Shown here: in pieces, positions 3,166 through 54,511 of the stretch
Numbering within the stretch: the stretch's first letter is position 1
Layout of the letters: every line of letters starts with the position of its first letter
DNA from: Halobacterium rubrum
GTDB taxonomy: Archaea; Halobacteriota; Halobacteria; Halobacteriales; Halobacteriaceae
Assembly: GCF_021729015.1 (NCBI RefSeq)
Contig: NZ_JAJQQZ010000002.1
Span: 496,001-560,000, forward strand
DNA length: 64,000 nucleotides
Reading direction: 5' to 3'
Notes under the pieces: generated by a model
The model's input: the letters and a program-made list of their open reading frames with translations, nothing else
The model's database searches: none
Told to the model about the DNA's origin: nothing
Translations under genes and position numbers: made by a program

Positions 3166-3723
3166 ATGAGCCTCCCCGAAGAATTTCGAGAGGAGTTCGA
3201 TTCAAAGGGAGAAACCTTCTTCCAAATCGCCGAAACTCTCTATGAGAACCACGGCGACCAATTTACACTCTCAGATTTAGCTGATGAGGTGGGACTATCG
3301 AAGAGCCGAGTGAGTACCCATCTCGAGGAGCCACAGGAAGGGGACTGGGTGAGTAAAAACTCCGGGGACACCACCTACGTCTGGAACACCGAGAAGTACA
3401 ATCCCATCGAGATTGAGACGACTGACGCCGTGTTTGGACTCTATACGGATTTGTGGGAGGTCTTAAAACGACACTCTCGGGCGACAACTGGCACGCCAGC
3501 TATTGCTGGGTTAGTACTCTTTATCACTGCAGGAATGATGTGGTTCCTCTATTTCGGATTCTCAGTAGGACTCTTCCAAGAGTCAGTCATACCGATTACG
3601 GGCTATTTCGGTGTTGGACTCGTGCTATTCATAACAGGGGTGGCTGTGACGCTATTGTCTCCGACTATGGCTATCGCAAACAGGGCAATTCTCAAGATTT
3701 ACCAAGTGCTGAAGAATAGCTAA
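3166..3723 (+). CDS. Membrane-anchored winged-helix protein
   Basis: The protein has 185 residues. Residues about 15-70 form a winged helix-turn-helix, with the recognition region LSDLADEVGLSKSRVSTHLE. Residues about 108-133 and 140-167 are two hydrophobic segments, so the DNA-binding part would be held at the inner face of the membrane. Such one-component membrane regulators are common in haloarchaea; the target is unknown. The ATG at 3166 is supported by a TATA-like box about 30 nt upstream, consistent with a leaderless message. A T6 tract at about 3750, after the stop, may terminate transcription. Base composition is lower in GC than genes after 4.2 kb. It may regulate itself or the divergent rhomboid gene. 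Confidence 0.65.
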   Translation: MSLPEEFREEFDSKGETFFQIAETLYENHGDQFTLSDLADEVGLSKSRVSTHLEEPQEGDWVSKNSGDTTYVWNTEKYNPIEIETTDAVFGLYTDLWEVLKRHSRATTGTPAIAGLVLFITAGMMWFLYFGFSVGLFQESVIPITGYFGVGLVLFITGVAVTLLSPTMAIANRAILKIYQVLKNS

Positions 3724-4011
3724 TTCCGGCCGAGGTCCGATTGATGGAGGTTTTTTCCGGTGTATTCAGTTCGACTTCTAAAGCAATTCAACTATTGATG
3801 GTTTTGCTGGCTTGACTCCACAATCGGCGATAGATTACCTCACCGTCGCCCGTCAGTCATCAGCGAAGGCACGACAGCGGCGACCCGCAACCAGAGTATG
3901 ATTGAACCCCAGACTGCCCGAAATTTACGTTCGCCTCGGTCAAAGTGTAACTATGCGTTTCAGGCAGTAACGCGACCGAACCCGTTGGCTCAGAATCGGC
4001 CACCGTATGGA

Positions 4012-10395: not shown

Positions 10396-11067
10396 TCACT
10401 GGACGTGGTCGAGCACCTCGTCGCGGACGTACTCCAGGAAGGCCTCGGCGTCGTAGCTCGCCGGCTGGTAGACCTCGACGTAGCCGCTGCGCGAGGCCGT
10501 CATCTTCACCTCCTCGTCGTCGTCGTAGCCGTACGCGAGCCCGAGTTGCGTGAGCGTCGCGCCGTCCAGCAGCGCCGGCAGGTCGCGGCTCGCGCGCAAG
10601 TCCGCGCCGTGGAACGTCCCGTTCACGCCGCCGTCGCCGTCGCCGGAGACGCCGACGCGCCACGGCGTCGCGGCGTCGTGGTCGCCGAGCACGCCCTCGA
10701 GGTCGATTGTGGCGCGCTCGATGCTGGTGTTCGTCTCGGCGCCGACGAGGTCGAACGCGAACGCCCCCGCGCCGCTGCCGACCGCGACGAACTCGCCGGG
10801 GACGCCGACGAACTCCGTGAACTCCGTCGTGACGTCCGTGCCCTCCGTGACCGTGATGCCGTCGTCCTCGATGGCCGCGTCCCGCGAACTGGTCAGTCGC
10901 TCCGCGGCCGCCCGCCCCTGGAACGCCATCCCCCCGGACGGCAGCGAGAACACGCGGTCGATCTCCAGACGGCGGTCGAGCTCGCGGCCGCCCTCGGTGA
11001 CCGTCTCCGCGTACGAGTCCACCATCTCGAACGACCCATCGACGACGCCGAGTACGCCTGCCCTCAT
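10396..11067 (-). CDS. Conserved haloarchaeal protein of unknown function
   Basis: The start is placed at the ATG giving MRAGVLGVVDGSFEMVDS; the longer open frame upstream reads as low-complexity Arg-rich shadow sequence. The 223-residue product is soluble and acidic, without membrane segments or recognised catalytic motifs. It looks like a two-part alpha/beta protein, with VGSGAGAFAFDLVG and an HGADLRASRDLPALLDG segment. I do not recognise its function. It is a single gene flanked by RPA and a secreted lipoprotein, all on the minus strand with separate promoters. Confidence 0.7.
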   Translation of the reverse strand: MRAGVLGVVDGSFEMVDSYAETVTEGGRELDRRLEIDRVFSLPSGGMAFQGRAAAERLTSSRDAAIEDDGITVTEGTDVTTEFTEFVGVPGEFVAVGSGAGAFAFDLVGAETNTSIERATIDLEGVLGDHDAATPWRVGVSGDGDGGVNGTFHGADLRASRDLPALLDGATLTQLGLAYGYDDDEEVKMTASRSGYVEVYQPASYDAEAFLEYVRDEVLDHVQ

Positions 11068-11141
11068 GTCGGTTCGACCGAGAGCACCCCGGGTCATAAC
11101 GGTTGGTGGTCGTGTCAGAAGAAACTCACCACCGGCGAGGC

Positions 11142-11585
11142 TCAGAGCGCCACACCCGCCACGTCGCGGCGCTCGCCACGGGAGTCGTGGACGACGACGG
11201 CGCCGTCTGGCGGTCCGCCCACGACCGTGACTGACGCCTCGTAGGTGACCTCGGTGAGGCACTGCACGCAGGAGTCGACGCCCTCGCGTGCGACGCTCGC
11301 CACCACCACCCGGAGCTCACCGTCCTCCACGCTCGCACGCTCCAGGCGCGCGGTCCGGCAGCCGTCCCGCACGGTCGTCGTCCCGGAAACCGACACCGTC
11401 TGTCCGCTCACGCTCACCGACGCCGCCTCCCGGACCGCCCCACAGCCGGCGTCGGCCACCGAGAAGGCGGTGTCCGAGACACCGGGCCGTGCCGTCGTCC
11501 CGTCGCCGCTGCCCGCCGGCAGCCCCACACAGCCCGCTGTGGCCGCTGCCGACACCGCCGCAGCGAGCACGGTACGACGACGCAT
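11142..11585 (-). CDS. Small secreted lipoprotein
   Basis: The product has 147 residues. It starts MRRRTVLAAAVSAAATAGC, an N-terminal signal with consecutive arginines, an Ala-rich core and a lipobox whose cysteine would be lipid-anchored. The mature part has several further cysteines (CGAVREAAS, RDGCRTARLE, SCVQCLTEV), so disulphides or metal binding outside the cell are possible. It resembles haloarchaeal extracytoplasmic proteins of unknown role. The start at 11585 is chosen because the longer frame upstream runs antisense through tRNA-Arg and its repeats. Confidence 0.7.
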   Translation of the reverse strand: MRRRTVLAAAVSAAATAGCVGLPAGSGDGTTARPGVSDTAFSVADAGCGAVREAASVSVSGQTVSVSGTTTVRDGCRTARLERASVEDGELRVVVASVAREGVDSCVQCLTEVTYEASVTVVGGPPDGAVVVHDSRGERRDVAGVAL

Positions 11586-11676
11586 ACCACAGTGTTCGCC
11601 GGACGGCGTGAAATGACTTGCCACCGGGACCGCCAATCGTAACCGCTTTACGTAAACCCGGGCTACGAAAGAGTGA

Positions 11677-11749
11677 GTCCGGATAGGGTAGTGGACTATC
11701 CTCTTGGCTTGCGGAGCCAGGGACCGGCGTTCAAATCGCCGTCCGGACG
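11677..11749 (+). tRNA. tRNA-Arg(GCG)
   Basis: The acceptor GTCCGGA pairs with TCCGGAC, the anticodon stem is TTGGC/GCCAG with loop TTGCGGA (anticodon GCG), and the T arm is CGGCG-TTCAAAT-CGCCG; the discriminator is G. It has 73 nt and no intron. An AT-rich CTTTACGTAAAC just upstream may be its promoter. Immediately downstream, the gene's own 3' end is repeated as part of a 134-bp tandem unit. Confidence 0.93.
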
Positions 11750-12017
11750 TAATTTCTCGCGCTGCTACGACGACGAGCGACCGCCGTGTCGCTCGTCTCG
11801 TACAGCGAGTGGTTTCGTCAGGCGATTTGAGCTTGACAGACAAGCGCAGCGAGTCTGTCGGCGTTCAAATCGCCGTCCGGACGTAATTTCTCGCGCTGCT
11901 ACGACGACGAGCGACCGCCGTGTCGCTCGTCTCGTACAGCGAGTGGTTTCGTCAGGCGATTTGAGCTTGACAGACAAGCGCAGCGAGTCTGTCGGCGTTC
12001 AAATCGCCGTCCGGACG
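11725..12017 (+). repeat. 134-bp tandem repeat carrying tRNA-Arg 3' ends and palindromes
   Basis: The 3' end of tRNA-Arg (CGGCGTTCAAATCGCCG plus TCCGGACG) occurs at 11725, again at 11859 and at 11993, giving two essentially identical 134-bp units and a third truncated end. Each unit contains, in order: a tRNA 3' end; palindrome P1 (11760-11807, and again 134 bp later); an inverted T-arm copy GGCGATTTGAGC (11821-11832); and palindrome P2, GACAGAC/GTCTGTC with an 11-nt loop (11835-11859). The inverted T arm can pair with the T-arm copy on either side. Confidence 0.9.
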
Positions 12018-12439
12018 TTCCTCTGTAGACTACACCCGAGAGCGACGTCTATGTCGCTCTCGGCGTACTGGTGTGTTAGCGTCGAGGCGATTTGAGGTTG
12101 ACAGACGAGCGGAGTGAGCCGACCGTCTCGGGACGTTCAAATCGCCGTCGGACCGGCGGTCCGACGAGGCGCCGACCACGGGTCGGCGCCGCCGTCCGGA
12201 CGTTCCTCACTGCGTTCGTCACGACCGGACGAGCCCGTGCTCACGCGGTTCGTACGGACGCCGTCCGGACGGTACTTATCCTGCTGCCACGACCGCGAGA
12301 GCCCTCTGTGACTCTCGCCTCGTGCAGGGAGTCGTCACGCTCTCGTACCCGCCCACCGGCGAGTGAGCGAGGGGACTCCGGCTGGCCGGGCAGCGACGCG
12401 GGCCGACTGGTTTTTGCCCTCGGCGACCCGAAGACGCCC
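12018..12439. repeat. Degenerate continuation of the tRNA-Arg repeat array
   Basis: No gene is apparent. A third, diverged unit follows. It has palindrome P1 CCGAGAGCGAC/GTCGCTCTCGG (12036-12063), an inverted T arm GGCGATTTGAG (12086-12096), a degenerate P2 beginning GACAGACGAGCGGAGTGAGC, and another T-arm copy with TTCAAATCGCCG near 12136. Further fragments of the GCCGTCCGGACG tRNA end appear near 12190 and 12270, with palindromes such as GGCGCCGACC/GGTCGGCGCC around 12170-12192. The region looks like decaying repeats. Confidence 0.7.
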
Positions 12440-13054
12440 ATGGACGCGGCGCTGCGTGCGGGAGTCGCAGTGTACAACGCCGGCTACTACCACGCCGCCC
12501 ACGACGCCTGGGAGGACGAGTGGCTGGCGCTCGAGGACGGAACCGCCGACGAGCGGTTGCTCCACGGACTCGTGCAGTTCACGGCCGCCGTGCACCACGC
12601 CCGCGGGCGGAACTGGGCGGGCGCGGTCGGGCTCTGCGAGAGCGCGCGCGAGTACCTCGCGGCAGTACCGGGCGACTATCGCGGCGTGAACGTCGCCGAC
12701 GCCGGAGACTACCTCGGCGCGCTCGGCGATGACCCCGAGCGCGTCGAGCGCGAGCCGCCGCTGGCGCTGACCGTCGACGGGGGCGCGCTCGAGCTCGACG
12801 ACCTCGAACCACCGGCTGCCGTCGAGGCGGCCGTGGTGCTGGCCGAGGCGCTGGGCTACGACGAGGCAGAGTTCTCGGCCGCTGCCGAGTACGCCCGCGA
12901 CACGCTCTCCGACGGCGGGTACGGCGAGTTCGCGGGGCTGCTCTGTGACTTCGTGACCGAGCGCGAGCAGCGGGCGCTGGTCGCGACCCGGCTCGGTCAG
13001 CACGTCCGGCGCAAACAGCGCCGGGAGGACGACGTGGCCGGCCTGTTCGACTGA
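12440..13054 (+). CDS. DUF309 domain protein
   Basis: The product has 204 residues. The N-terminal part, YNAGYYHAAHDAWEDEWL followed by LLHGLVQFTAAVHHARGRNW and the segment around GLCESAREYL, matches the helical DUF309 family, whose conserved His/Glu residues are thought to form a buried active or metal site. Function is unknown. The start at 12440 is chosen because it gives MDAALRAGVAVYNAGYYH right at the domain; the open frame upstream runs through degenerate tRNA repeats and is not credible. It is convergent with the small membrane protein gene at 13088. Confidence 0.75.
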   Translation: MDAALRAGVAVYNAGYYHAAHDAWEDEWLALEDGTADERLLHGLVQFTAAVHHARGRNWAGAVGLCESAREYLAAVPGDYRGVNVADAGDYLGALGDDPERVEREPPLALTVDGGALELDDLEPPAAVEAAVVLAEALGYDEAEFSAAAEYARDTLSDGGYGEFAGLLCDFVTEREQRALVATRLGQHVRRKQRREDDVAGLFD

Positions 13055-13087
13055 TCGACCGGCTGTCTGACTCGCTGTGCCGGCGGG

Positions 13088-13348
13088 CTACGCCGCTGCC
13101 GCGAACAGTTCCGTGTACGCGATGTAGCCCGCGACGACGAGGCAGGCGAGGCCGGCCGCGCGGACGAACCACGGCGCCCACGCGCCGAACGGGTCGTCGC
13201 CGTCGCTGCCGTACTCGCCGCCCTGGCGGCGCCGGCGGGTCGGCCCGACGAACACCGACAGCAACAGCATCGCTCTCGGCTTCGCGAGCAACGCGACGCC
13301 CAGCAGGGCGCCGAGTCCGACCGCGAGCAGCTCGCGGACGCCGACCAT
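13088..13348 (-). CDS. Small membrane protein next to htpX
   Basis: The product has 86 residues with two hydrophobic segments, about residues 5-33 (LLAVGLGALLGVALL) and 62-82 (LACLVVAGYIAYTELF), separated by a basic then acidic loop. It starts exactly where the HtpX gene stops, with no gap, so the pair forms an operon. Function is unknown; a partner or substrate-delivery role for HtpX is conceivable but untested. Confidence 0.7.
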   Translation of the reverse strand: MVGVRELLAVGLGALLGVALLAKPRAMLLLSVFVGPTRRRRQGGEYGSDGDDPFGAWAPWFVRAAGLACLVVAGYIAYTELFAAAA

Positions 13349-14185
13349 CTACGAGCGGAGTCGCTGGATGCGCTTCTCCATCGGCGGGTGCGTGGAGACG
13401 AGCTTCGACAGGAGGCTCGTGCTCTCCCCGAAGATGCAGAGCGCGGAGACGTTCTCGTCGACCCGGGACTCCTGGCTGCGCTCGTTGCCCTTCGAGATCT
13501 TCTCGAGGGCGCGGGCGAGCGGTTCGCCGGTGCCGATGGCTTCCCGGGCGTCGGCGTCGGCGACGTACTCCCGGTAGCGGCTGATGGCGAGCACGAACAG
13601 CATCACGAACATCTGGACGAGGTTGCCGACCACGATGGCGAGGAAGAAGTCCGCGATGTCGTTGTCGCCCGTGAACAACACGATGTACTGGGCGACGATG
13701 CCCACGACGGACGCGATGCCCTGCCCGATCACCATCGTCACGACGTCGCGGTTGGCGATATGCGAGAGCTCGTGGGCGAGCACGCCGTCGAGCTCCTGGT
13801 TGTCCAGAATCTGGATGAGCTCCTCGGAGACGACGACGGTGCCGTTGCCCTTGCGGCCGACGGCGAACGCGTTCGGGACGCCCATGCGGGCGACCTTGAG
13901 CGTGGGCTTCTCGATGCCCATGTCCCGCGAGAGCGCTTCGACGCGCTGGTGGATGCGCGAGTAGCGCTGTTCGTCCATGTCTTCGGCGCCGACGCTCCGG
14001 AGCGCGGCCCACTTGCCGATCTTGTACTGGACGCCGACGAGCAGGACGCTGCCGACGATGGCGATGGCGAGGATTGTCTGGCTCTGCCCGAAGAAGAACC
14101 ACGCGGCAGCTACCGCTACCGAGTAGAACGCGAAGAGGATGGTCCCGACGATGGCCATCCGTATCTTGAGGCCGGTGTGTCTCAT
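13349..14185 (-). CDS. htpX: Membrane zinc metalloprotease HtpX
   Basis: The 278-residue protein has two N-terminal membrane segments (about 10-50), then the zinc site LAHELSHIANRD with His138, Glu139 and His142. Further membrane segments lie at about 150-205, and RYREYVADADA provides the likely third ligand Glu. It ends with the conserved STHPPMEKRIQRL. HtpX degrades misfolded membrane proteins. The product is complete and all motifs are present. It is followed directly by a small membrane protein gene. Confidence 0.95.
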   Translation of the reverse strand: MRHTGLKIRMAIVGTILFAFYSVAVAAAWFFFGQSQTILAIAIVGSVLLVGVQYKIGKWAALRSVGAEDMDEQRYSRIHQRVEALSRDMGIEKPTLKVARMGVPNAFAVGRKGNGTVVVSEELIQILDNQELDGVLAHELSHIANRDVVTMVIGQGIASVVGIVAQYIVLFTGDNDIADFFLAIVVGNLVQMFVMLFVLAISRYREYVADADAREAIGTGEPLARALEKISKGNERSQESRVDENVSALCIFGESTSLLSKLVSTHPPMEKRIQRLRS

Positions 14186-20016: not shown

Positions 20017-20090
20017 GGGTTCGTGGTCTAGTTGGTCATGACGCGGCCTTTACAAGGCCGAGGTCGGTGGTTCGAATCCGCCCGAACCCA
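20017..20090 (+). tRNA. tRNA-Val(UAC)
   Basis: The acceptor GGGTTCG pairs with CGAACCC, the anticodon stem is CGGCC/GGCCG with loop TTTACAA (anticodon UAC), and the T arm is GGTGG/CCGCC around TTCGAAT. It has 74 nt with discriminator A, no intron and no CCA. Its T-arm sequence recurs in inverted and degenerate direct form just downstream. Confidence 0.95.
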
Positions 20091-20225
20091 CTTACTGAGA
20101 CTGCGCCGAGCAGCAACGCGTGTGTCGCTGCGAGCGACGACCGGTAGTTGGGTCGCGGATTCGAACCCTGGAAGACGAGCGTCAGCGAGTCTTCCTTCGG
20201 TGAGAAACCGCTCGAACCCCCCACT
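20091..20225. repeat. Palindromes and T-arm copies after tRNA-Val
   Basis: Downstream of the tRNA, an inverted T arm GGATTCGAACCC lies at 20157-20168. A palindrome GGAAGAC/GTCTTCC with the 12-nt loop GAGCGTCAGCGA follows at 20170-20195. After it comes a degenerate copy of the tRNA end (CCGCTCGAACCCCCCAC) near 20208-20224. A weaker GCAGC/GCTGC palindrome precedes the inverted T arm. The order matches the arrays after tRNA-Arg and tRNA-Phe, with one unit here. Confidence 0.75.
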
Positions 20226-20251
20226 TCTCGTGGCGCTCCCAAAGAGCGTCG

Positions 20252-21355
20252 TCAGTCCTCTGTTTGGCTCGTCGGAGCGTCGGCCGACTCGGGCCGCTGG
20301 TACGGCGAGTGTGAGACCACGTAGCCGTTGTCGACGTGCACGACGTCGTCGACGGTGTAGAACCGCATGGGTACCTCCTGTTTCGTCGTCACGGGGAAGT
20401 CGTAGTGCTCGGCGTCGTACTTGAACGTCTCGCCGTCACCGTGGCGCCGACCGACGAACGCCTCGTGGCGAGCGAGTCGCTTCTCGACGGTCGCCTGTGC
20501 GAGCTCCGGGACGCTCTCGACGTCGTCGTCGAACACGTCCACGAACGCCTCGTTCAGCTCGTACCCCACCGAGTTCCGGCCCGCGACCATCGCCGCCAGA
20601 CTCGTCGTTCCCGTCCCCCAGAACGGGTCCAGCACCGTGTCGCCGTACGTGCTGTACATGTTGACGAGACGGTAGGGAATCTCCAGCGGGTACGCCGCCG
20701 AGCGGTCCCGGAGTCCGTCGTCGCCCTCGGCGGTTGCGGCATCGTCCGCCAGCTCCTGGAACGTCCCCGTCACGTCCTCCCAGACGTCGGAGAACCACTC
20801 GTTGCGCTCCTCCCAGAAGTACGCCGACTCGTAGCGGACGTCCGTCGAATCGAAGTCCCGGCTGTCGCTCCCGTTCCGGAACACCAGCAGGTACTCGTGT
20901 TCGAGCGTCGCGTACGCGTTCGGCGGCAACATCCCACTGCCCATGAACTTCGCCGCCGAGTTCGCGGGCTTCCGCCAGAGGATGTCGGGCAGCGGCTCGA
21001 ACCCGAGCTCGTCGAAGTACTCCGTGACCCGGGCGTGGTTCTGGTAGACCCGGAAGCTGTCGTCGACCGTCCGGGTCGCGTCCCCGACGTTGATACAGGC
21101 GATGCCGCCGTCGACGAGGACCCGGCGCACCTCGTCCCACGTCTCCTGGAGCACCTCGTGCATCAACGAGAACGCCGCCTCGCCGTCGCCAGCGTCCAGC
21201 GCGGCCTCGATGTCGGGGTTCAGCGACGCGAACACGTCGTCCCACATCTCGATCATCGGGTACGGCGGCGACGTCACCACCAGCTCGACGGCGTCGTCCT
21301 CGATCCGGGAGAGGTCGTTGGAGTTCCCGACGAACACCCGGTGCTCGGTCTCCAT
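20252..21355 (-). CDS. zim: DNA methyltransferase, N4-cytosine/N6-adenine type, probably CTAG methylase Zim
   Basis: The product has 367 residues from the ATG giving METEHRVFVGNSND; a longer start at 21406 is less likely. The catalytic motif IV is TSPPYPMIEMWDDVF, followed later by motif I LDPFWGTGTTSLAAMVAGRNSVGYE, the beta-class order. TSPPY is typical of N4-cytosine enzymes. A widespread haloarchaeal orphan methylase, Zim, modifies CTAG and has this architecture; I assign it by recalled similarity. No restriction endonuclease gene is adjacent, so it is orphan. It lies immediately after the tRNA-Val repeats, on the opposite strand. Confidence 0.65.
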   Translation of the reverse strand: METEHRVFVGNSNDLSRIEDDAVELVVTSPPYPMIEMWDDVFASLNPDIEAALDAGDGEAAFSLMHEVLQETWDEVRRVLVDGGIACINVGDATRTVDDSFRVYQNHARVTEYFDELGFEPLPDILWRKPANSAAKFMGSGMLPPNAYATLEHEYLLVFRNGSDSRDFDSTDVRYESAYFWEERNEWFSDVWEDVTGTFQELADDAATAEGDDGLRDRSAAYPLEIPYRLVNMYSTYGDTVLDPFWGTGTTSLAAMVAGRNSVGYELNEAFVDVFDDDVESVPELAQATVEKRLARHEAFVGRRHGDGETFKYDAEHYDFPVTTKQEVPMRFYTVDDVVHVDNGYVVSHSPYQRPESADAPTSQTED

Positions 21356-22274: not shown

Positions 22275-22348
22275 GCCGCCTTAGCTCAGATTGGGAGAGC
22301 ACTCGACTGAAGATCGAGCTGTCCCCCGTTCAAATCGGGGAGGCGGCA
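22275..22348 (+). tRNA. tRNA-Phe(GAA)
   Basis: The acceptor GCCGCCT pairs with AGGCGGC, the D arm is GCTC/GAGC, the anticodon stem is CTCGA/TCGAG with loop CTGAAGA (anticodon GAA), and the T arm is CCCCG-TTCAAAT-CGGGG. It has 74 nt, discriminator A, and no intron. Its 3' end is repeated twice downstream. Confidence 0.95.
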
Positions 22349-22600
22349 TATTCTGAACTCGTGAGCGGAGCGAGCGAGTGAAGAAACGACGCCGAGCCGA
22401 TTTGAGCCTGGAAGTCACAGCCCGCGCAGCGGAGCGAGCAGGAATGTCTTCCAACGTTCAAATCGGGGAGGCGGCATATTCTGTGGCTGTTCACGTTGTT
22501 CGCAGCCACAGCAAGGACGCCGACGCGAGTTGAGCTCGCGAGTCGCGCGCAGCCTAGCGAGCACGTCTCACGGCGTTCAAATCGGGGAGGCGGCACGTTC
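22349..22600 (+). repeat. Repeat array of tRNA-Phe 3' ends and palindromes
   Basis: The tRNA end GTTCAAATCGGGGAGGCGGCA recurs at 22456-22476 and 22575-22595, spaced 128 and 119 bp. Unit 1 holds palindrome P1 ACTCG/CGAGT (22357-22379), an inverted T arm CCGATTTGAGC (22397-22407) and palindrome P2 GGAAG/CTTCC (22410-22452) with a GCGGAGCGAGC interior. Unit 2 holds P1 CTGTGGCTG/CAGCCACAG (22481-22511), a degenerate inverted T arm GCGAGTTGAGC near 22525, and a GCCTAGCGAGC-type interior. The architecture equals that after tRNA-Arg, although the palindromes differ in sequence. Confidence 0.85.
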
Positions 22601-52613: not shown

Positions 52614-54511
52614 GCGAGGACGGCGACCGCCGCGAGTTCCGGGACCTCGCGTCGCCGGAGCGCGCCCGCGAGGTGCTCGCCTCGCTTGACCTCGACCCGG
52701 AGCCGGAGAACGTCCCGCTGGCCGACGCCCGTGGGCGGGTGCTGGCCGAGCGCGTCGACGCCGCGCTCGACGTGCCGGGGTTCGACCGCGCGAGCATGGA
52801 CGGGTACGCCGTCGTCGCCGAGGACACGTTCGACGCCGACGAGGTCGACCCCGTCAGGCTCGACGTCGTCGGGGCGGTCCACGCCGGGGAGGAGCCCAGT
52901 GTCGCCGTCGAACCGGGGTCCGCCGTCGAGGTGTCGACGGGCGCCGTCGTGCCGCCCGGTGCCGACGCGGTCGTGAAAGTCGAGGAGACGACGGAGGCCG
53001 ACGGCGGCGACGCGGTCGAGGTGCGGACGAGCGTCGCACCCGGCGACGCCGTGATGCTGGCGGGTGCCGACATCGCCGCCGGGTCGCGGGCGCTCGGCCC
53101 CGGGACGGAGCTGACCGCGCGGGAGATCGGGTTGCTGTCGGCGCTCGGCGTCGACGAGGTGCCGGTCCGCGGCACGCCGACGGTCGGCATCGTGTCGACC
53201 GGCGACGAGCTCGTGCGGCCGGGTGAATCCCTCGACAGCGCCGCCGGCCAGATTCACGACGTGAACAGCTACGCCATCGCGGCGGCCGTCGAGGAGGCCG
53301 GCGGCGACCCGGTGCTGTACCCGCACGCCGGCGACGACTACGACGAGATGGAGCGACTGCTCGTCGAGGGCGCCGAGGAGTGCGACCTCGTGCTGTCCTC
53401 GGGGTCGACGTCCGCGAGCGCCGTCGACGTCATCTACCGGGTGGTCGAGGAGCGCGGCGACCTGCTGTTGCACGGCGTCGCCGTCAAGCCCGGGAAGCCG
53501 ATGCTCGTCGGCGAGATCGGCGGGGCGGCGTACGTCGGCCTGCCGGGCTACCCAGTGTCGGCGCTGACCATCTTCCGGGCGTTCGTCGCGCCGCTCGTCC
53601 GCGAGGCGGCCGGACTGGACGAACCCCGGACGGCCGTCGTGAGCGGCGAGATGGCCGTCCAGGAACGCTACGGCGAGGGGCGCCAGCGCCTGCTGCCCGC
53701 CGGCCTCGTCGCCGACGGCGACGGCGACCTGCTCGTCTACCCCGTCGACAAGGGCAGCGGCGCGACCACGAGTCTCGTGGACGCCGACGGCACCGTCACG
53801 GTGCCCGCCGACACCGCCTACCTCGCCGCGGGCGAGTCCGTGGACGTGACGCTGTTCTCGCCGGACGTCCGGCCGCCGCGGGTGCTGGCCGTCGGCGAGG
53901 ACGACCCGCTGTTCTCGCGGGTGCTGGACGACGTCGCCCGGCCGCGGTTCCTCCCGGTCGGCACCCGCGAGGGGCTGCGGCGGCTCCGCGAGGGCGTGCC
54001 GGACGTCGCCGTCGTCGCCGGCCCCGAGACGCCCGACGGCGACACCGTCGACCTCGGCGGCTGGACCCGGGACTGGGGGCTGGTCGTCCCCGACGGGAAC
54101 CCGGACGGCGTCGACGGCCTCGGCGACCTCGTGGACCGCGACCTCCGACTGGTGAACCGGGACGCGGGCTCGGGGCTCCGCCGGAGCTTCGACGACGCCG
54201 TCGAGGCGCTGGCCGACGAGCGCGCGACGAGTCGCCGGGAACTCACCGACGCCATCGACGGCTACGGGCTGACGACGAAAGCCCACGAGAGCCCGGCTCG
54301 CAAAGTCGCGGCGGGCGAGGCGGACGCCGGGCTCGGGCTGCGAGCGACGGCGGCGAGCCTCGGGCTCGGGTTCGTCCCGCTCGGCACACAGCCGGTGGAC
54401 GTCGTGGCGGCGCCCGAGCGAGCCGAGAAGCCCGGCGTCCGGGACCTCGCGGACGCGCTCGCGGACTGCGGCCGGCTGGCCGCGTCGCTGGACGGTATCG
54501 AACCGCAGTGA
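52610..54511 (+). CDS. MoeA fused to a periplasmic-binding-like (PBP/LysR-effector type) domain
   Basis: The 633-residue protein is read from GTG 52610, overlapping the previous stop. Residues 1-400 form a MoeA protein (FDRASMDGYAVVAEDTF, STGAVVPPGADAVVKVEETT, IVSTGDELVRPGESLDSAAGQIHDVNS, VLSSGSTSASAVD, VAVKPGKPMLVGEIGGAAYVGLPGYPVSAL). Residues about 405-633 are a substrate-binding-type domain (GLRRLREGVPDVAVVAGPETPDGD; DLRLVNRDAGSGLRRSFDDAVEALADER; ESPARKVAAGEADAGLGLRATAASLGLGFVPL), a fusion known in archaea. It may sense the oxyanion or cofactor during metal insertion. Two MoeA proteins in one operon suggest a separation of Mo and W, an inference. Confidence 0.9.
   Translation: MSEDGDRREFRDLASPERAREVLASLDLDPEPENVPLADARGRVLAERVDAALDVPGFDRASMDGYAVVAEDTFDADEVDPVRLDVVGAVHAGEEPSVAVEPGSAVEVSTGAVVPPGADAVVKVEETTEADGGDAVEVRTSVAPGDAVMLAGADIAAGSRALGPGTELTAREIGLLSALGVDEVPVRGTPTVGIVSTGDELVRPGESLDSAAGQIHDVNSYAIAAAVEEAGGDPVLYPHAGDDYDEMERLLVEGAEECDLVLSSGSTSASAVDVIYRVVEERGDLLLHGVAVKPGKPMLVGEIGGAAYVGLPGYPVSALTIFRAFVAPLVREAAGLDEPRTAVVSGEMAVQERYGEGRQRLLPAGLVADGDGDLLVYPVDKGSGATTSLVDADGTVTVPADTAYLAAGESVDVTLFSPDVRPPRVLAVGEDDPLFSRVLDDVARPRFLPVGTREGLRRLREGVPDVAVVAGPETPDGDTVDLGGWTRDWGLVVPDGNPDGVDGLGDLVDRDLRLVNRDAGSGLRRSFDDAVEALADERATSRRELTDAIDGYGLTTKAHESPARKVAAGEADAGLGLRATAASLGLGFVPLGTQPVDVVAAPERAEKPGVRDLADALADCGRLAASLDGIEPQ

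Follow-up and report, generated by a model that had tools for sequence, protein, structure and literature searches.

Tandem units of tRNA 3'-end copies and covarying hairpins downstream of tRNA genes in Halobacterium and across the Halobacteria

Results

Organisation of the tRNA-Arg(GCG) tail

The window, the whole 64,000-nucleotide stretch of the Halobacterium rubrum genome that was analysed, contains a functional tRNA-Arg(GCG) gene followed by an array of units built around its 3' end, and tails of related design lie behind tRNA-Val(TAC) and tRNA-Phe. The features, in window positions, are:

11677-11749, + strand: tRNA-Arg(GCG), functional copy, T loop GTTC from 11729 (ARAGORN; Rfam RF00005)
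11725-11858, + strand: unit 1, 134 bp (tRNA 3' end, palindrome P1, inverted T arm, palindrome P2)
11760-11807, + strand: P1 hairpin of unit 1, core GACGAGCGACCGCCGTGTCGCTCGTC at 11772-11797 (RNA and DNA folds)
11821-11831, - strand: inverted T arm (R'') of unit 1, its partner being the copy at 11863-11874 (fold)
11835-11859, + strand: P2 hairpin of unit 1 (short form)
11859-11992, + strand: unit 2, 134 bp
11863-11883, + strand: copy 1 of the tRNA-Arg 3' end, exact, from the T-loop GTTC to the discriminator base
11894-11941, + strand: P1 hairpin of unit 2
11955-11965, - strand: inverted T arm of unit 2
11969-11993, + strand: P2 hairpin of unit 2
11993-12130, + strand: unit 3, 138 bp, with P1 stem and P2 unlike those of units 1 and 2
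11997-12017, + strand: copy 2 of the tRNA-Arg 3' end, exact
12037-12062, + strand: P1 core of unit 3, CGAGAGCGAC..GTCGCTCTCG, placed partly by eye from the alignment
12086-12096, - strand: inverted T arm of unit 3
12100-12134, + strand: P2 region of unit 3, longer and of other sequence, its 3' side retaining GACCGTCT
12135-12146, + strand: copy 3 of the tRNA-Arg 3' end, T-loop part alone, the acceptor part displaced by two hairpins
12147-12190, no strand assigned: two perfect hairpins (12147-12165 and 12168-12190) between the T-arm copy and the acceptor copy
12194-12202, + strand: acceptor copy GTCCGGACG
12203-12271, + strand: second kind of unit (inverted acceptor 12223-12231, hairpin 12231-12259, direct acceptor copy 12263-12271)
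12259-12335, + strand: degenerate acceptor and P1 region, 75% identity to unit 1
20092-20230 (end approximate), + strand: unit after tRNA-Val(TAC), decayed, with CGCGGATTCGAACC as inverted T arm and GGAAGACGAGCGTCAGCGAGTCTTCC as P2
22328-22595, + strand: array like that of tRNA-Arg after tRNA-Phe, two units

The sequence-only reading of this locus had described tandem units running tRNA end, P1, inverted T arm and P2, two of them near identical and a third keeping only the architecture. The order is confirmed, with units of 134, 134 and 138 bp, and units 1 and 2 are in fact 100% identical. For unit 3 the different P1 stem stands, both sides of the core being altered relative to unit 1 when compared by eye, but not the loss of all else: unit 3 aligns with the first two units, at 73% identity over the blastn match, and more than the architecture is therefore kept. 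The tip of the inverted T arm, GGCGATTTGAG, is found at 11821, 11955 and 12086, and P2 of units 1 and 2 reads GACAGAC-AAGCGCAGCGA-GTCTGTC, a 7-bp stem with an 11-nt loop. Beyond 12140 the array continues to about 12335 as split and acceptor-only copies, and its second kind of unit is present also at four other loci (L016, L018, L019 and L021).

The stretch from the tRNA to the first copy is predicted to fold much more stably than its dinucleotide shuffles (z of -6.0 as RNA and -4.8 as DNA). With the tRNA included, the predicted minimum-energy fold pairs the 5' acceptor strand of the tRNA with the downstream copy, and the two alternative folds proposed earlier for this locus are thus real at the level of prediction.

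Tails in the genome

The genome gives 43 tRNA matches, and 42 genes were examined for tails, a copy being defined as a match, with at most three mismatches, to the last 20 nt of the gene itself (from GTTC) no more than 420 bp beyond it. A copy follows 18 of the 42 genes (22 of 42 when acceptor-only copies are counted) and precedes none of the 42, and this asymmetry, together with the fold z-scores, excludes chance. In nearly all tails the tRNA end is followed by a T-rich stretch, P1, the tRNA's own T arm in inverted form, P2, and then the own T loop with acceptor. Within the window, the tRNA-Phe tail (22275-22595) holds two further exact copies of its own 3' end, at 22456-22476 and 22575-22595, with R'' at 22397 and 22525 and P2 at 22413-22449 and 22541-22568, and tRNA-Val(TAC) with its decayed tail occupies 20017-20260. 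A shorter P2 pattern matched 14 times in this genome and 0 times in the control, 12 of the 14 matches falling inside tRNA tails. ARAGORN also called a tRNA-Val(GAC) at 52725-52798, an apparent false positive inside a reading frame that is MoeA-like by eye; the genome tRNA match list has no tRNA there.

Spread across Halobacterium and the Halobacteria

At least one full unit follows tRNA-Arg in 8 of 13 Halobacterium genomes, the others having acceptor copies or none, and the comparison of related strains that had been suggested finds unit numbers differing among the 13 congeners. The T arm of tRNA-Arg has two alleles, GGCG..CGCC and GGAG..CTCC, and the first inverted arm corresponds to the allele of its host at 8 of 8 unit-bearing loci, four for each allele. 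The gene 3' of the tail varies between species (at least three kinds by eye, L009-L021); given that this downstream gene differs between species, the tRNA-Arg tail is a synteny break.

The same order after tRNA genes, which the sequence-only reading proposed to look for in other haloarchaea, is found behind many tRNA genes and class-wide. Across a set of 292 Halobacteria genomes, many genera and families have a second copy of the tRNA-Phe 3' end at a spacing of about 105-165 bp. P2 beside a T-loop copy was found in 170 of 194 genomes of the class and in 61 of 65 genera, with many matches against one control match; the class-wide pattern is AGTCRC..C-(8-38)-YGTCT-(4-12)-GTTCRANNC. When a stricter pattern was scanned over 85,000 species, haloarchaea alone were present among the 80 matches listed. 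No true example was recognised among viral contigs (IMG/VR), where one loose and two tighter patterns gave chance matches only, and a single 65-nt example used as the query returned none from plasmids (PLSDB) and one weak chance match from phage records. An Rfam search of 10500-13500 gave only tRNA, with E up to 1, and no description of such repeats in haloarchaea was found in the openly licensed literature. A simple decaying duplication, confined to one strain and free of compensatory change, had been named as the outcome that would speak against a conserved structure; the class-wide spread and the covariation of P2 are its opposite.

Anatomy and covariation of the hairpin

R'' pairs with the copy (R'), and between them lies the stem NNNAGTCG/CGTCTNNN, in which a T.T mismatch is conserved; further in come a small internal loop and then a variable stem whose cap is usually GA-RC-GNA-GY-GA. 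The tip is in most cases a C(GNA)G triloop, and a shorter, fully paired form of P2 also exists, as in units 1 and 2 of the window. In 34 sequences, uncorrected for relatedness, 98% of P2 stem cells are paired, changes on both sides of the stem number 42 cells against 10.9 in shuffled controls, and the covariation score is 0.51 against 0.119 +/- 0.023 when shuffled and at most 0.098 when slid. In 127 further matches, likewise uncorrected, the two outer pairs of the L box (AGTCG/CGTCT) are 97-98% Watson-Crick, with 3-4 pair types each. Pairs were counted by script or on the L box; the MAFFT alignment shifts R'' by one column. Given that the inverted arm tracks the T-arm allele and P2 covaries strongly, the earlier suggestion that structure rather than sequence is conserved is upheld. 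Conservation of AGTCG/CGTCT with its mismatch would require a putative binding partner.

R'' fits its own tRNA at 11.14 of 13 positions, against 10.23 +/- 0.09 for shuffled tRNAs, and the base opposite T-loop position 57 forms T-A 50 times and C-G 18 times. A tally of transitions in R'' finds G.T on the sense strand at 39 of 304 possible sites and A.C at 7 of 380, a bias in which a single position dominates and the sequences tallied are related. This excess of G.T over A.C suggests that it is the tRNA-sense strand that folds, either as RNA or as single-stranded DNA. Inside P2, wobble pairs are rare, nearly all pairs being Watson-Crick, and the sense-strand bias is weaker than in R''.

Copies belong to their own tRNA

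A tRNA lies 5' of P2, within 400 bp and on the same strand, for 84 of 127 P2 matches, several of the others being cut by the locus edge. The copy is identical to its own tRNA at 20/20 nt in 47 of the 84 and at 18/20 or more in 62 of the 84, and copies that fit a foreign tRNA better number 0-1 in 80. The idea of a mobile palindrome that carries tRNA ends from place to place is not supported by these counts: practically all copies are own copies, and the units therefore do not wander with foreign ends, or else units that did so were lost. An exchange of cassettes among tRNAs was rejected as well, on the same grounds. T-loop copies repeatedly gain one base at the same site, GTTCA[N]AATC (L382, L388, L393, L394, L431, L436 and several tRNA-Phe tails).

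Integrative elements and candidate enzymes

Elements of about 2-21 kb at tRNA-Phe are bounded by the T-loop-to-3'-end block that is also copied in the tails, and a phage-integrase domain was found in five ORFs picked from five of these loci. In L134, L132 and L138 the element is inserted in the real tRNA and the tail lies beyond it. Integration regions at tRNAs used by tyrosine integrases are reviewed in PMC8371274. Given that the element ends share the copied block, the boundary of the copies is that of tyrosine integrases at tRNAs; that the two boundaries coincide does not prove that an integrase makes the units. The 134-bp units have the duplicated tRNA 3' end of an att core, and neither an integrase nor a cargo gene lies between their copies. 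A casposon-like target duplication was considered for the acceptor copies of 13-15 nt; terminal inverted repeats were not seen. The Y1 transposase (Y1_Tnp) was rejected as driver because it is absent from tail-rich genomes (for example G095, 15, and G077, 11) and does not correlate with tails over 97 genomes (Spearman -0.05); the genome studied here has 0. No integron integrase scored above the TIGR02249 cut-off in any of the 97 genomes.

P2 away from tRNA genes

Halorubrum genomes carry a GC-rich repeat, several hundred bp long and dispersed, in which P2 was also seen (L359 at about 3300-3800, L358, L368, L374, L425 and others); no credible Rfam match was found for it. At a few protein-gene ends the last codons are repeated downstream with P2, as in aspS and an RdgB-like gene, both named by eye (L428 at about 5770, L448 at about 7787). 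The end of an enolase-family gene (by eye) is reiterated downstream with P2 in L004 and L028, at about 1450-1650, where gene-end variants are exchanged with tail copies between two Halobacterium species.

Discussion

Knowledge of the tRNA-linked repeats (TLRs) of E. coli dates from 1978. PMC8144298 describes 22 of them at 10 loci in K-12, each with 18-19 bp identical to the end of the tRNA or rRNA gene that precedes it, and gives them no settled function; some are transcribed with that RNA and processed, and some are bound in vitro by Hfq and CsrA. The sequence-only reading had known of no named element of the type described here; the TLRs are one, a named class with the same hallmark. Like the TLRs at tyrT/rtT and rrA/rrB/rrF, the haloarchaeal units lie directly 3' of the gene, in one to several units per locus, and each repeat ends in the same sequence as the gene before it. 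The haloarchaeal copy starts at the T-loop GTTC and runs 20-21 nt to the discriminator base, compared with 18-19 bp in E. coli. Unlike TLRs, the haloarchaeal units contain a hairpin with the kept AGTCG/CGTCT that is common to many tRNAs and nearly the whole class, and the scale also differs, with 18 of 42 tRNA genes in this Halobacterium genome against the 10 loci of K-12. No sequence similarity between the two was found, the Rfam matches being tRNA only. The E. coli tyrT repeats (L452 1567-1941) also have an inverted 3' end, GGGGAAGGAT, which the predicted fold pairs with the copied end. For one unit the complementary stretch exceeds in length that of 295 of 300 shuffles, for the other two not clearly so; no mention of an inverted 3' end in these repeats was found in the part of PMC8144298 consulted. 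Judged from sequence, the haloarchaeal units are placed here as a new TLR-like variant, probably independent of the TLRs of E. coli. They would add to the TLRs another set that is much larger and apparently of separate origin, in archaea that include a genetically tractable genus (Haloferax, in which H. gibbonsii and H. prahovense have tails at loci L333 and L364); its hundreds of natural variants and covarying hairpin make the origin and role of TLRs testable by comparison. One recurrent structure that matches no Rfam family shapes tRNA 3' flanks across a whole class.

The reading preferred here, with a probability of roughly 0.45, is that these units are the archaeal counterpart of TLRs, that recombination at the tRNA 3' end has amplified them and that their folded sense strand is under constraint. 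It starts from what is observed, namely the architecture, the own-copy rule, the covariation, the class-wide spread and the unit numbers that differ among congeners; units come and go fast, while pairing is retained and so is the match to the own tRNA. Recombination between direct copies at the tRNA 3' end would multiply and contract the units, the recombining block being the attachment site that tyrosine-integrase elements of Halobacteria would also use. Selection would keep the folded tRNA-sense strand, most likely as a read-through trailer RNA, in which R'' and P2 would lock the T-arm copy and so prevent it from competing with the genuine T arm; they may also present a binding or cleavage site to a putative protein. 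Against this reading, a T-rich stretch lies directly 3' of the tRNA and much transcription may therefore end before the unit. The Watson-Crick P2 and its C(GNA)G triloop fit a DNA hairpin equally well. Given that a full copy is absent from over half of the tRNA genes, a general role in maturation is not needed, and a purely locking role leaves the conservation of AGTCG/CGTCT, the P2 of the Halorubrum repeat and the P2 at protein-gene ends unexplained.

The layout of the hairpin raises the possibility that it is instead a folded DNA recombination site, attC-like in its order R''-spacer-L''-tip-L'-spacer-R', with the units as tiny cassettes moved by a putative tyrosine recombinase whose strand exchange would fall at the G/TTC step in the T loop. 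An arrangement of two boxes with spacers around a variable tip, the kept mismatch, the C(GNA)G tips and the start of the copy at GTTC are all consistent with this, as are the integrase-encoding elements bounded by the same T-loop-to-end block, the hairpin types that are common to different families yet differ between congeners, the gene-end swap in L004/L028 and the reiterated ends of aspS and the RdgB-like gene. However, it is somewhat unlikely. Integron boxes follow the consensus RYYYAAC / GTTRRRY, which the haloarchaeal R' (GTTCRAA) and L box (AGTCG/CGTCT) do not fit, and no integron integrase exceeded the cut-off in 97 genomes. The units have no gene cassettes or other cargo, none was recognised in IMG/VR, PLSDB or phage records, and even the tails, in which a cassette from another tRNA should do no harm, contain practically none of that kind. 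Furthermore, the wobble bias points to the sense strand, while integron attC uses the bottom strand. A related proposal is doubtful: an undescribed class-wide recombination or copying system would read the T.T-mismatch hairpin, act at the T-loop GTTC (and seldom at the ends of protein genes) and keep replacing the sequence 3' of each tRNA by copies of that tRNA's own end. Retention of a duplicate attachment site for defence, or for the excision of integrative elements, would account for copies that coincide with the att block and for the extra T-loop base in some of them, which would spoil an attachment site; it is nevertheless very improbable, given that the elements examined insert in the real tRNA with the tail beyond and that the copies are without the left half of the site. 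The likeness to tyrosine-integrase att sites in tRNA genes is the block repeated at the element ends (PMC8371274), and the units differ from such elements in being about 134 bp long, in having their own hairpin before the copy and no integrase, and in not having been found in the viral and plasmid sets searched.

It is also conceivable that the tails are neutral debris, in which scars of integrative elements and tandem duplications accumulate and template switching makes or corrects the palindromes. Patchy presence, identical tandem units and the use of tRNA 3' ends as integration sites would be expected of debris, and snap-back synthesis could create R'' from R'. This is improbable, since template-switch correction would remove a mismatch and the T.T mismatch is kept, along with the internal loop, class-wide and beside compensatory change; the directional wobble bias and the exact own copies also count against it. 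Mobilisation of the palindrome by Y1 transposases of the IS200/IS605 type would make the units PATE- or REP-like, which they resemble in being short, palindromic and non-coding imperfect hairpins with a kept mismatch, and PATEs are described in Haloquadratum (PMC3119063). This origin has hardly any probability: the units are bound to tRNAs rather than dispersed (12 of 14 pattern matches), the Halorubrum repeat excepted, and neither the own genome nor G095 and G077 encodes Y1_Tnp, in keeping with the missing correlation.

In tRNA-Phe fragments whose first bases lie in the anticodon arm, two hairpins stand directly before GTTC (L094, L123, L125, L135-L137); the hairpins differ in sequence and share their position, and some of these fragments form the end of elements about 10 kb long. 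A hairpin of the second kind was also seen within a protein reading frame, YyaL-like by eye, at 1501-1548 in L026 and L035, from two Halobacterium species.
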